Assembly: GCA_903961015.1 (NCBI GenBank)
Contig: CAJCCX010000237.1
Coordinates: forward strand, 1 to 33,641
DNA length: 33,641 bases
From: an uncultured bacterium
GTDB lineage: Bacteria > Planctomycetota > Phycisphaerae > Phycisphaerales > SM1A02
Direction of reading: 5' to 3'
Position 1 is the stretch's first letter, and every line of letters begins with the position of its first letter. The translations under genes and the position numbers were made by a program. This document shows, piece by piece, positions 19,690 to 25,084 of this stretch. The notes beneath the pieces were generated by a model. That model was not told the origin of the DNA. It did not search any database and saw only the letters and a program-made list of their open reading frames with translations.

Positions 19690-21372
19690 TTATTTGTCCG
19701 CAACTTCTGCGACGGTGATATCAAACAGTGAAAGTGTTCCACTGACTTCGTTGCACACAACAAGTATTGGTCGTTTGGTTGGACTCGAGCTCGCGGGGAT
19801 CACAAGAAGTCCTTCTGGTCCCAAATCACCAACATCCGCAAGCTTGTCTGGAACTTTGTCGCCATCCACATCGACAGCCAAATCAATGCTTGTATCGCGT
19901 CGATTGAAATAACCAGCAAAGATTGGCTTCGTTGGATTCGTCGCATCCCACATCATCACACCACCAGCTCGTTCCAATCCAACAAAGATTATTCGATGAT
20001 CGGAAATCATCGCCACGGCAACACCTTCTGGCTCTGGACCGCGCGCATCACTGCGATCATCTTGCGACGAGTTTTCTCGGTTGTCTGCATTAAAAGCTAG
20101 GGGCATGCGATCGCGAAGTGTGCGTTCTATTTCGCTTCCAGAATCCCACGTCAATTCAAGTCGCGTTTGTGTGTCGCCAGTTGCTGGCACGATTCGCCAA
20201 ATACTTGCTGATCGTGCGCCGAAGCAAACAAGATCGTCATAGTCTCCATCTTGATCTGTATCGCCGCATGCTTCACTGACTTCAAGTCGACCTATTGCGT
20301 CAGATTTCAATAAATCGCTTTGCGAATGCCCCTCTTCACCTTCAGCTGAAAGTGGAAATCGAGTTGGTTCAAGAGCAGGCTTCGTTTTATCTTTCGAATT
20401 TTTCAATTTCGAAACGCGCTGGGTTTCGTTATAAAATGGATATTCAAATGACTCTCCTTCATTTGCTGTCACCAGATAATCCTGCCCATCGCACTTGAAA
20501 TACGCAACCGTATCGGGTTGATACATGCCACGAATTGGCCATGGAGAAATTGTTGTTCGGTTTTCTTTGTCGCTCGCATCAAGGCCCACTCCAGCGGCGC
20601 TGAAATCTTTCAACCCAAACGGCAAGATCGCAATGATTTTCGCTGCCGGGATGTCAAGCACCGCAAGCGCGTTCGCTTCTTGCAATGTGATGAATGCGCG
20701 CGTGCCATCTTCGGAGACGGCGATGTATTCAGGCTCGAGTTGTTGGACGAACGATCGACCAGGCATAGGTGCGTGGACTCCTGCCGTTCGTAACTCTGAG
20801 GCGCGTGACTCGAATGCATCGAAACTTGCATTTCGAAGCGTTGCTTTCTCGGCACCCTGCGACAGATCGATGACAGAGATTGACCCAGCGGGGTCTTCGG
20901 CGCCATCATCGCTTGGTTCTGCTTCGTTGGCGACGAGTAGTGTCTTGCCATCAGGTGTGAATGTCAGCATGTCGGGACCGAAGCCCACTTTGATTACTCC
21001 AATTTGTTTCATCGCCAAATCGAAGAATCGGACCTCGCCCTGCACTTCTTTCGACTTTGGAATCCAGCACATTGCAACAAGATTTCCATATGTTGCAACG
21101 CTGGTGATTCCAAACTGCCGCGTCATCGAAATCCACAAGGGATTTGCTTGGTCTGAAATGTCGACCATTGAGAGCCCCTGCGCCGAGTTTGTGACATAGA
21201 GCCGCTTTGAGTCTGGACTCCACGCCGAAATCTCGCACGCCGATTCATTAAAGAGTCCAGAAGAATATGCGCCAAGAAACTTGACCTGAGCGATGTCTGA
21301 GGGGGCCGTACCAGCAAGCGGTGGAGAGAAAAATAAACACACGCCGGCAAAAGTGGTTGGAATTAATGTCAT
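19690..21372 (-). CDS. Choice-of-anchor I-like secreted beta-propeller protein
   Basis: ORF to 21486; likely start MTLIPTTFAG (21372). GPDMLTFTPDGKTLLVANEAEPSDD, YIAVSEDGTRAFITLQEANALAVLDI, PEGVAVAMISDHRIIFVGLERAGGVMMWD. Confidence 0.8.
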   Translation of the reverse strand: MTLIPTTFAGVCLFFSPPLAGTAPSDIAQVKFLGAYSSGLFNESACEISAWSPDSKRLYVTNSAQGLSMVDISDQANPLWISMTRQFGITSVATYGNLVAMCWIPKSKEVQGEVRFFDLAMKQIGVIKVGFGPDMLTFTPDGKTLLVANEAEPSDDGAEDPAGSISVIDLSQGAEKATLRNASFDAFESRASELRTAGVHAPMPGRSFVQQLEPEYIAVSEDGTRAFITLQEANALAVLDIPAAKIIAILPFGLKDFSAAGVGLDASDKENRTTISPWPIRGMYQPDTVAYFKCDGQDYLVTANEGESFEYPFYNETQRVSKLKNSKDKTKPALEPTRFPLSAEGEEGHSQSDLLKSDAIGRLEVSEACGDTDQDGDYDDLVCFGARSASIWRIVPATGDTQTRLELTWDSGSEIERTLRDRMPLAFNADNRENSSQDDRSDARGPEPEGVAVAMISDHRIIFVGLERAGGVMMWDATNPTKPIFAGYFNRRDTSIDLAVDVDGDKVPDKLADVGDLGPEGLLVIPASSSPTKRPILVVCNEVSGTLSLFDITVAEVADK

Positions 21373-21396: not shown

Positions 21397-21413
21397 GTTC
21401 AGACTGAGTTCAG
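21397..21413 (-). promoter_or_regulatory. 11-bp-phased direct repeat CTGAAC-N5-CTGAAC upstream of the minus-strand gene
   Basis: + strand GTTCAGactgaGTTCAG; spacing 11 nt. Confidence 0.5.
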
Positions 21414-21454
21414 TTTCAATGAAGGCATCAGAAAGCAACGCTTCTAAATGCGAA

Positions 21455-21471
21455 CTGAACTTCAACTGAAC
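21455..21471 (+). promoter_or_regulatory. 11-bp-phased direct repeat CTGAAC-N5-CTGAAC upstream of the plus-strand gene
   Basis: AACTGAACttcAACTGAAC at 21453..21471; spacing 11 nt. Confidence 0.5.
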
Positions 21472-21494
21472 AATTGTTAAGCACAATTTCCCTC

Positions 21495-23264
21495 ATGTTT
21501 AAGAATCAAACGATCGTCAATCTCTTGGTTGTGACTTCCTACGTTATCACTTCTACAAGTGCATTGGCATCTGATGTCATCGTGAACGAATGGAATTCAG
21601 TTGGAAGCGCCAAGTGGCTTGGAAATCCTGCCGCGGCAGTGGTTGGGTGCCCGACACCTGATGGAGTCGGCGGAGCAGCTTGTTCGATTGAAGAAGATGT
21701 TTACTTCGGTCGTTCGCTGGGCAACGGTGGTGATTGGATCGAGATCGTCATCGTCAAGGATCACACAGATATTCGAGGTTGGAAACTTCAGTGGATTGAA
21801 TCCGCGGCAGGCGATGCGGATGGCACGGATGTTTGGTACGAAAATGGCTTGATCCCGCAAGGTGAGATTTTGTTTTCTGGTGCAGCAATCTGGTCTGATT
21901 TGCGCGCAGGAACGATTCTGACAATCACAGAATCGTCGACAGTTCTTGGGGGACTTGATACGGACACATCATTCAATCCGTGCAATGGCGACTGGTGGAT
22001 CAATGTCAATTGCTTTGACGCAGCTCTCGTCACGTGCAACGCAAACGTGATTGATCTGACGAATCCAACTTACAACGATCCGTTGGATGTTGGAAACGAC
22101 AACTGGGCGTCGCGCATCATCAATGCGAAAGGACAGATCGTCATCGATCTCGCAGGCGAAGGCCAGCCATCATGGGGAGCAACTGGCGTAAATAGTCGTG
22201 AAGCCGTGAGACTTGAGGAGAGTCCATCACAGGCAATCACGCCATATTCACGGTACGACGACGCTGACAATTCTTCTTTCGGTCAACCGAATGGCTGGAG
22301 CGACACGGTCACTCTGTGCAAGACATATCAGGACTTTTCTGCTTTGCGCTCGCCAGTGCTTGCGGAACTTTGCCAAACCTGCAAGCCGCTCATGCTGAAT
22401 GAATATAACGCAGTCTCTGCGACTGGATTCTTAGGCGGCGGAACGCAAGCAGCCGACGCTGCTGGTGGTCAGGCGAGTGATTTGCAGTTTGGTCGATCAC
22501 TCGGCAACGGAGGCAACTGGTGTGAATTTGTAATCATTGCGGAGAACTTGGATATGCGCAATTGGATCTTGCGCTGGCAGGACAAGACAGATTCTGGAAC
22601 AATCAGACTGTCGAACAATACATTCTGGTCGAATCTTCGAAGTGGCATGATCTTGACCTTCACAGAAAGCACTGCTGTGCAGGGTGGACTCGACACGGAC
22701 TTGTCATACAACCCAACTGGTGGAGATGTATCGGTCAATGTCAACACTTTTGATACCACGCTTGTTACGCAGACGACCAGCACGAAGCCGCTCCATGTTT
22801 CGGGAGAATTTTCCGTGTCGAACGATCGCTGGGCGATTGAAGTTCGTGACCAATCATTCGCGTCAATCATCGAACTTCAGGGTGAAGGTTCCGCGAATTA
22901 TTTTGCTGGTGGGGTTGGCGTGGGCGATGTTTGCAGACTGCGAGCGAATCCATCGGGTCGCATCGATGCTGCAAGTTTTTATGATGATTCCGGCACTTCT
23001 AGCACATTTGGATATGCGAACACTTGGACTTCCTGCCCAGGTTCGACGACTGTTACGCAATCATTCGTTGCGCTTCCGGAGGTTGGATGTGTTTGGGTGA
23101 TCGCCAATCCAGCGGACATCAATGGCGACGGATTTGTCGATGGTACAGACATGACGTCGTTGCTCTCCGCGTGGGGTAGCAAAGGACCAATCGGCGATAT
23201 CAACCATGATGGTGCTGTCAATGGAGTCGATCTCACTTCGCTGCTTTCGGGATGGTCGCCTTGA
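21495..23264 (+). CDS. Secreted protein with two tandem lamin-tail-like units and a C-terminal dockerin-type domain
   Basis: Likely start MFKNQTIVNLL (21495). Unit 1 VIVNEWNSVGSAKWLG...FGRSLGNGGDWIEIVI; unit 2 LMLNEYNAVSATGFLG...FGRSLGNGGNWCEFVI; tail DINGDGFVDGTDMTSLLSAWG...DINHDGAVNGVDLTSLLSGWSP. Confidence 0.85.
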   Translation: MFKNQTIVNLLVVTSYVITSTSALASDVIVNEWNSVGSAKWLGNPAAAVVGCPTPDGVGGAACSIEEDVYFGRSLGNGGDWIEIVIVKDHTDIRGWKLQWIESAAGDADGTDVWYENGLIPQGEILFSGAAIWSDLRAGTILTITESSTVLGGLDTDTSFNPCNGDWWINVNCFDAALVTCNANVIDLTNPTYNDPLDVGNDNWASRIINAKGQIVIDLAGEGQPSWGATGVNSREAVRLEESPSQAITPYSRYDDADNSSFGQPNGWSDTVTLCKTYQDFSALRSPVLAELCQTCKPLMLNEYNAVSATGFLGGGTQAADAAGGQASDLQFGRSLGNGGNWCEFVIIAENLDMRNWILRWQDKTDSGTIRLSNNTFWSNLRSGMILTFTESTAVQGGLDTDLSYNPTGGDVSVNVNTFDTTLVTQTTSTKPLHVSGEFSVSNDRWAIEVRDQSFASIIELQGEGSANYFAGGVGVGDVCRLRANPSGRIDAASFYDDSGTSSTFGYANTWTSCPGSTTVTQSFVALPEVGCVWVIANPADINGDGFVDGTDMTSLLSAWGSKGPIGDINHDGAVNGVDLTSLLSGWSP

Positions 23265-24133
23265 TGCAAATCGAGTATCAATTTTCAACCCCGCGCGCAC
23301 GAGCATTTACGCTCGTTGAAATTCTCGTCGTCATTGGCATCATCGCAACTTTGGTTGGCATACTTATGCCTGGAATCGGCATGGTTCGCAAGAGCGCTGC
23401 CGCAACGAAGAGTCAATCAAATTTGAAACAGTGGGGAATGGGGACAATCATGTGGTCCACAGTCAATAAGGATCGGTTGCCATGGGAAGGATTGAAAGAT
23501 GCGAATGACATGCCTTTGAATCTTGCTCAAAAGGCATATTGGGCGAATGCGATTCCGCCAATGGTTGACCAACTTCCATACTCAAAAATTTCTGATGATG
23601 CGTACAGCGCACAAACAAATGTGCCATTTGCAGGTAACAGCAATTCGATTTTTATCGATCCTGCTGCAACGACTGCGGAATTTGCACCTTGGGGCACCGG
23701 TCAACCAGGTTCAGGAGGAATTCAGCGTCAGTTTTATTTCAACTATGTTCCAAACAGCCAACTGAACAACACGCTGCTCGCATCTTCTGGTCAAGGGCAA
23801 TATTCGCCGAAACTCGCTATGAAAATCGCGTCAATTTCGCGAGCAGACTCGACGATCTTGATGTTGGAAATGCGATCAAACCCAAGCGAATTGTCTGCGA
23901 GCGATGTTCACTTTGGACGAGATCTGAAGCGCCACCGTGCGGACTGGAAGCGTTTTGCTTCACGACATTTTGAGGGAGGCCACATGCTCTTTGCGGATGG
24001 GCATGTTGGTTGGGTGTTGAATTCAGAGGCAACACGCAATGTCCAAGGAAGTCGCGATCCAAGTTTCGCAGGCGGCGATTGGAACACGAACAAACTTGTT
24101 TGGGATCCGATTGGTCCAGCAACGGACGAATGA
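23264..24133 (+). CDS. Type II secretion/type IV pilus-like pseudopilin with prepilin N-terminal methylation motif
   Basis: ARAFTLVEILVVIGIIATLVGILMPGI; C-terminal HMLFADGHVGWV typical of planctomycete pseudopilin-like proteins; start overlaps the upstream stop (TGATG). Confidence 0.9.
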   Translation: MQIEYQFSTPRARAFTLVEILVVIGIIATLVGILMPGIGMVRKSAAATKSQSNLKQWGMGTIMWSTVNKDRLPWEGLKDANDMPLNLAQKAYWANAIPPMVDQLPYSKISDDAYSAQTNVPFAGNSNSIFIDPAATTAEFAPWGTGQPGSGGIQRQFYFNYVPNSQLNNTLLASSGQGQYSPKLAMKIASISRADSTILMLEMRSNPSELSASDVHFGRDLKRHRADWKRFASRHFEGGHMLFADGHVGWVLNSEATRNVQGSRDPSFAGGDWNTNKLVWDPIGPATDE

Positions 24134-24164: not shown

Positions 24165-24202
24165 CTTCACGCAATCTTCACCAAGTATTCACTTGTATTC
24201 AC
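24165..24202 (+). promoter_or_regulatory. Four phased TTCAC direct repeats
   Basis: cTTCACgcaatcTTCACcaagtaTTCACttgtaTTCAC; TTCAC starts 24166, 24177, 24188, 24198 (steps 11, 11, 10). Confidence 0.45.
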
Positions 24203-24298: not shown

Positions 24299-25084
24299 AT
24301 GTCATTTCATTCATCCCTTCCATTCGCGGCAATTACTGCCACTCTTCTTTCTTCTTCATCCTTCGGTGCTTTGATCGCTGGCGATGTTGCAATCGTTGGC
24401 TTTCAAGCTTCTGGCGTGCCAACGGACTCTGTGGCATTCGTCACATTCGTCGATCTTGCACCAGGAACAGTCCTGTACTTCACCGACAATGGTTGGACAG
24501 GTACCGCATTTCGAGGCGTTTCAGCAACTGATGGCGATGGAAACGAAAACCTCATGCGCTTCACAGTTGTCAACACAATCGTTGCGGGAACGATCATTGG
24601 ATCAAGAACAACATCCGCGGATTATGCTTGGACACTCAGCGGTTTGGTTGGACCAGGAACGTCGGCGTATGCACAGCTTTCGCTTTCTTCGACTGGTGAG
24701 CAAGTCACGATTCTCGAGAGCACAAATCTAGCAAATCCGATTTTCAGTGACTTCACTGCGCTGTACAACTTCGACAATACGAGTACATATGAAACTGCGA
24801 CAACTTCCGGAACGGGAAGTTTGCCGACTGGATTGGTTCAAGGAACCAGCGCAGTCCTTTTGACTAGTGCTTTGAATTCCGCAACGTTCAATCTCGGCAC
24901 GCTGACTTCGGGAACACAAGCAGAGTGGCTCGCAGCGATCGGCAATGCAGCAAATTGGACCACTGGAACTGGAACTGCTGATGCAGGTTCTGGTTTTATC
25001 AATGTGGTTCCAGCACCTGGCGCTCTCGCTCTTTTGGCATGCGCAGGTATGGCCGGATCTCGCCGCCGACGCAGCGCACGCTGA
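24299..25084 (+). CDS. Secreted PEP-CTERM-like surface protein
   Basis: 261 aa; signal peptide; C-terminal VPAPGALALLACAGMAGSRRRRSAR tripartite sorting-like signal. Confidence 0.8.
   Translation: MSFHSSLPFAAITATLLSSSSFGALIAGDVAIVGFQASGVPTDSVAFVTFVDLAPGTVLYFTDNGWTGTAFRGVSATDGDGNENLMRFTVVNTIVAGTIIGSRTTSADYAWTLSGLVGPGTSAYAQLSLSSTGEQVTILESTNLANPIFSDFTALYNFDNTSTYETATTSGTGSLPTGLVQGTSAVLLTSALNSATFNLGTLTSGTQAEWLAAIGNAANWTTGTGTADAGSGFINVVPAPGALALLACAGMAGSRRRRSAR

Follow-up and report, generated by a model that had tools for sequence, protein, structure and literature searches.

The window, i.e. the whole stretch of 33,641 nucleotides analysed here, is contig C237 of a 2.88-Mb genome assembled in 308 contigs. 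It contains two divergently oriented genes whose start codons, at 21372 on the minus strand and at 21495 on the plus strand, are separated by a gap of 122 nt, and in this gap the pattern CTGAAC-N5-CTGAAC is present on both strands. The genes, the repeats and the neighbouring features are as follows.

19690 to 21372, minus strand: gene for a secreted choice-of-anchor I (PF22494 / NF038117) beta-propeller protein of 560 aa
21381 to 21386, minus strand: -10-like hexamer TTTACT, separated by 10 nt from the last repeat and by 8 nt from the ATG
21397 to 21413, minus strand: predicted Pho box of the propeller gene, CTGAAC-TCAGT-CTGAAC, CTGAACTCAGTCTGAAC (read from 21413 to 21397)
21424 to 21419, minus strand: weaker third repeat CTTCAT, ahead of the propeller box
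21444 to 21449, plus strand: weaker third repeat CTAAAT, ahead of the dockerin-type box
21455 to 21471, plus strand: predicted Pho box of the dockerin-type gene, CTGAAC-TTCAA-CTGAAC, CTGAACTTCAACTGAAC
21482 to 21487, plus strand: -10-like hexamer CACAAT, separated by 10 nt from the last repeat and by 7 nt from the ATG
21495 to 23264, plus strand: gene for a secreted protein of 589 aa in which a NEYN...FGR..GNGGDW domain is repeated internally and the C terminus has dockerin-type repeats
23252 to 24133, plus strand: gene for a pseudopilin-like protein with an N-methylation motif and H-X9-DG, its start overlapping the end of the preceding gene
24165 to 24202, plus strand: third array, probably of the Pho type, CTTCAC-gcaat-CTTCAC-caagt-ATTCAC-ttgt-ATTCAC, with the final interval shorter by one base
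24299 to 25084, plus strand: gene behind the third array, encoding a secreted protein of 261 aa without a Pfam family, whose C terminus resembles a PEP-CTERM-type anchor by eye

Each of the two boxes has a repeat spacing of 11 nt and is oriented toward its own gene; from the last repeat to the ATG there are 24 nt on the minus side and 23 nt on the plus side. A preliminary description of this DNA had reported two gene-oriented copies of CTGAAC-N5-CTGAAC with 11-nt spacing about 24 nt from the starts, which is exact. Published Pho boxes consist of direct repeat units of 11 nt (PMC4415409), and the Pho box of E. coli sits 10 bp upstream of the -10 element (PMC1906773). The window sites indeed have at least two head-to-tail repeats with an 11-nt period and precede a sigma-70-type -10 element by about 10 bp, with TTTACT and CACAAT as imperfect -10 hexamers.

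Exact CTGAAC-N5-CTGAAC occurs at only three sites in the genome, two of which are in this promoter, and the reversed control pattern does not occur. Judged by the local frequency of CTGAAC, 0.37 exact pairs would be expected per genome and 1.6e-5 in the gap. When CTGAAC pairs at spacings from 7 to 33 were collected from about 77 kb of the organism's own sequence, the two of the window (11 nt) were accompanied by a single further pair, at 27 nt. One could argue that such repeats arise by chance in an AT-rich spacer, since near-matches are common: with three mismatches the window has 38 against 31 expected, and with one mismatch the genome has 16 matches compared with 36 for the control. The one-mismatch pattern is not enriched, and therefore the signal resides in exact or near-exact sites plus their context. 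Chance is, however, refuted by the very low expectation for the gap and by the conservation of the boxes, both in three congeners and in several further genera, which leaves it with a negligible probability.

In the three congeneric genomes G091, G115 and G070 the genes are divergent and both boxes as well as both -10 hexamers are kept. The propeller-side hexamer reads TTTACT in G091 and G115 and TCTCCT in G070, the dockerin-side hexamer CACAAT, CATCAT and CACCTT in G091, G115 and G070, respectively. Across the four congeneric genomes, 22 of the 24 hexamer columns are invariant versus 14 of the 98 other columns (Fisher p 8e-13). Outside the genus, a dockerin-side box occurs in G017, G054, G096, G117 and G025 and in the named records L094 and L144, with variants elsewhere; the divergent pair itself, with the dockerin-side box, is found in G017, G054, L094 and L144. 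The dockerin-side box was not detected in the family genomes G015, G027, G076, G092, G030 and G040. In G025 the two genes are on one contig and not adjacent, and the sole match in that genome of the pstS-trained model described below is upstream of the dockerin-type ortholog. Conservation in orthologous intergenic regions, which the preliminary description had named as a check, was accordingly found in three congeners and in other planctomycete genomes. In L031, L033 and L144 a conserved AAAGTCATGGT follows CTGAAC upstream of the dockerin-type gene and replaces the usual -10 spacing.

These comparisons bear on two other explanations. Both boxes together could be a single inverted repeat with 20-nt arms and a 37-nt loop, functioning as a hairpin or a dyad operator in which the direct repeats are incidental, and the arms are 80% complementary. 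However, divergent direct-repeat boxes necessarily resemble an inverted repeat, at pstS these direct repeats run in a single orientation, and G017, G054, G096 and G117 keep the box on one strand only. Moreover, the conserved columns are the hexamers and not the whole arms, and we consider an inverted repeat extremely unlikely. The second explanation accepts real Pho boxes but assumes that one gene alone, for example the dockerin-type gene, responds to phosphate. A clear box is present only on the dockerin-type side in G017, G054, G096, G117 and L144, and in G025 (L025) and G058 (L042) the CTGAAC-N5-CTGAAC by the propeller gene faces a divergent RNA-methyltransferase-like gene and not the dockerin-type gene. 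Against this, the propeller-side box and its -10 hexamer are conserved in G091, G115 and G070, and the propeller side of L094 has an apparent GCGAAC-acaaa-GTGAAC, read by eye. We consider a response of only one gene unlikely.

When motifs were sought de novo in pstS promoters from 26 relatives, leaving aside the genome under study, the result was T[TG]AAC-RCRAT-CTGAAC and, after it, a conserved A belonging to the -10 element; the likelihood was 254 versus 80-94 in shuffles. In the aligned pstS sites a [GC]ANNNT hexamer lies 10 nt past the last repeat. A position matrix trained on these pstS sites alone gave scores of 15.9 for the propeller box (p 0.001), 15.0 for the dockerin-type box (p 0.002) and 28.8 for the organism's own pstS, whereas 15 control promoters, taken from other upstream regions of the window, reached at most 4.3. 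The matrix places both window sites in exact register with their -10 hexamers. One point against the Pho reading is that the spacers of the window sites, TTCAA and TCAGT, are unlike the ACAAT of the pstS type. A sequence-only covariance model of the pstS sites (R1) scored the window sites weakly (best 8.3 bits) and was discarded as a genome-wide finder because it was too weak to recover them, whereas the plain matrix with the same columns scored clearly against the local promoters.

A search of the genome for the OmpR-type DNA-binding domain (PF00486, Trans_reg_C) returned one protein. Its best NCBIfam equivalog is PhoB; the score of 218 bits is below the TIGR02154 cut-off of 296. The phoB gene (C82:1152-1868) is followed by the gene for the sensor kinase PhoR, the cognate partner, which is cut off by the start of contig C82; the end of contig C294 encodes a sensor-kinase C terminus, followed by pstS, pstC, pstA, pstB and phoU. 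The assembly divides the phoR-pstS neighbourhood between these two contigs, which probably join as phoB-phoR-pstSCAB-phoU because in the relative G016 a phoB match precedes pstS by about 2.2 kb in the same orientation. The pstS promoter of the organism itself reads CTTAAC-gcaat-CTGAAC-cagat-CTAAAC; between its last repeat and the ATG there are 23 nt, as in the window. Upstream of its phoB there is the weaker CTTCAC form, ATTCAT-ccaat-CTTCAC (matrix p 0.018). The occurrence upstream of phosphate genes that the preliminary description had asked for was seen at the organism's own pstS, phoB (weaker) and Porin_O_P genes and at pstS in most relatives.

Another member of the OmpR/PhoB family (CtrA-, MtrA- or KdpE-like) could bind the repeats, and the genes would then answer a different signal. 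Direct repeats of 11 bp are common to several OmpR-family regulators; one example is PhoP of M. tuberculosis, reported to have 7-bp motifs with a 4-bp spacer (PMC4832192). The PhoB protein, as mentioned, remains below the equivalog cut-off. However, it is the only Trans_reg_C protein found in the genome, and throughout the family pstS has this motif ahead of it, which makes a different regulator very unlikely.

The repeats, their spacing, the position of the -10 hexamers, the conservation and the motif common to pstS are all read directly from the DNA. They argue, with a probability of roughly 0.9, for a two-way phosphate-starvation (PhoB) switch in the divergent promoter of what we take to be an uncultured planctomycete. 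The co-control of both transcription units by a PhoB-like regulator, as proposed in the preliminary description, is supported by the motif at pstS, by the conservation and by the single OmpR-family regulator being PhoB, with binding and induction as predictions. At low phosphate, phosphorylated PhoB would bind head-to-tail as a tandem dimer on each CTGAAC-N5-CTGAAC box. The box, 10 nt upstream of the -10 hexamer, would replace the -35 element, and PhoB would recruit the main sigma factor and RNA polymerase. One box would drive the propeller gene leftward, the other the dockerin-type gene together with the pseudopilin gene rightward. From the -10 hexamer to the ATG there are only 6-9 nt in the window, in the G091 and G115 promoters and at pstS of G000, G091 and G042 (also L207 and L050), and such short distances hold for most Pho promoters of this genus. 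Transcripts would then begin on the ATG itself or no more than a few bases away from it, and the mRNAs from several Pho promoters of the genus are therefore probably leaderless. For Planctomycetes genes without a Shine-Dalgarno sequence, a comparative study reports leaderless or S1-dependent initiation signals (PMC5397173). In the last and weakest step of the scheme, the secreted products would serve phosphorus scavenging.

What could the products do? The propeller protein, described beforehand as choice-of-anchor-I-like, is a member of the curated choice_anch_I family, well above the cut-offs of PF22494 (314.8 bits vs 32) and NF038117 (459.9 vs 300). It has many invariant acidic residues, and its AlphaFold2 model has a pLDDT of 83.7 and a pTM of 0.88. 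The best Foldseek match was the phosphotriesterase of Sphingobium TCM1 (5hrm; E 3e-12, TM about 0.5), with other propellers at about 1e-10; phosphotriesterase activity was not assigned since the fold match is not specific and generic propellers are close behind. We know of no enzyme activity of a bare choice-of-anchor I propeller, and a literature search for the family name returned no paper. Five related genomes encode a long form of the family, whose open frame spans about 1,000 residues. In G017 (L038, L049) and G045 (L035), the two in which the long forms were scanned, a Phytase-like domain (PF13449) interrupts the choice-of-anchor I domain. The propeller protein of the window clearly belongs to the same family but does not have the phytase-like insertion. 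Because the same propeller family carries this inserted domain in relatives, a role of the propeller in phosphoester scavenging is plausible. PhoD was not found in this genome.

The divergent gene had been described as 'lamin-tail/dockerin'; the dockerin-type repeats at its end hold, whereas the lamin tail has no Pfam match: at E<=0.001 Pfam gave Dockerin_1 alone, weak and below its cut-off. The pseudopilin that had been assigned to the same plus-strand operon overlaps the dockerin-type gene and follows it in all ten genomes examined. It is tempting to speculate that the regulon includes a secreted scavenging module, made up of a metal-dependent choice-of-anchor I phosphoesterase and a divergent surface protein with a pseudopilin, both under leaderless, PhoB-dependent promoters, but taken as a whole this picture is doubtful.

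Whereas the type of site is well known, its target genes are new candidates for phosphorus scavenging. Like the E. coli PhoB box (CTGTCAT-N4-CTGTCAT), which controls pstS and phoB, the sites have tandem head-to-tail units of 11 nt about 10 bp before a sigma-70 -10 element; unlike it, the hexamer is CTGAAC/CTKMAC instead of CTGTCA, two boxes form a bidirectional promoter, the target genes are different and the starts are probably leaderless. The cyanobacterial SphR box, at least three tandem CTTAACCT units with 3-bp linkers, controls pst, phoA and nucH. It shares the 11-nt period, often three repeats and a CTTAAC core close to the pstS boxes described here (CTTAAC-gcaat-CTGAAC), but here CTGAAC is the commonest second repeat and the target genes are others. 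The PhoP box of Streptomyces (GTTCACC direct repeats) likewise has 11-nt units in variable number; it has a different core and is actinobacterial. Our open literature search returned no Pho-box model for uncultured Planctomycetota, and CTKMAC-N5-CTGAAC-N10-[GC]ANNNT may serve as a testable one. It would tie an uncharacterised protein family of many phyla, with a plausible phosphoester role, to phosphate starvation and would place a pseudopilin and a dockerin-type surface protein in a Pho regulon. This bears on phosphorus acquisition by these bacteria and on the prediction of their response from genomes only.

The regulon may extend beyond the divergent promoter. A spacer-specific pattern, YTKMAC-RCAAT-CTKMAC with at most one mismatch, has five sites in the organism's own genome and none in the control: upstream of pstS, a DUF4142 gene, a DUF3450 gene and a Porin_O_P gene, and in the array at 24165 of the window. 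The array matches without mismatch and is also present in G091 and G115. The Porin_O_P and 24165 sites rest on the pattern search and were not significant with the pstS-trained matrix. The DUF4142 site, CTGAAC-acaat-CTGAAC (L001; C58:1724), is the third exact site of the genome and lies 69 nt before the gene, with no clear -10 hexamer; at the DUF3450 gene, CTGAAC-gcaat-CTTCAC is located 165 nt upstream (L205; C301:13472). Pho-type boxes were seen upstream of Porin_O_P (phosphate-selective porin) genes in the organism itself (L206; C197:5382) and in relatives (L089, L091, L210 and L211). Model or pattern matches in relatives include phoB and Porin_O_P genes, and a stricter family-wide pattern had only six sites.

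With generic Pho repeats, 66 upstream regions of choice-of-anchor I genes from many phyla gave p<0.05 in 10 cases in sense and 6 in antisense orientation, which is not significant overall and was left out of account; those of Acinetobacter are suggestive of such repeats. Candidate arrays (p 0.01-0.02, with some selection by eye) are seen with the long choice-of-anchor I/phytase-like forms in G045, G026 and G011, and the array upstream of the G045 gene consists of four repeats of the CTTGAC type.
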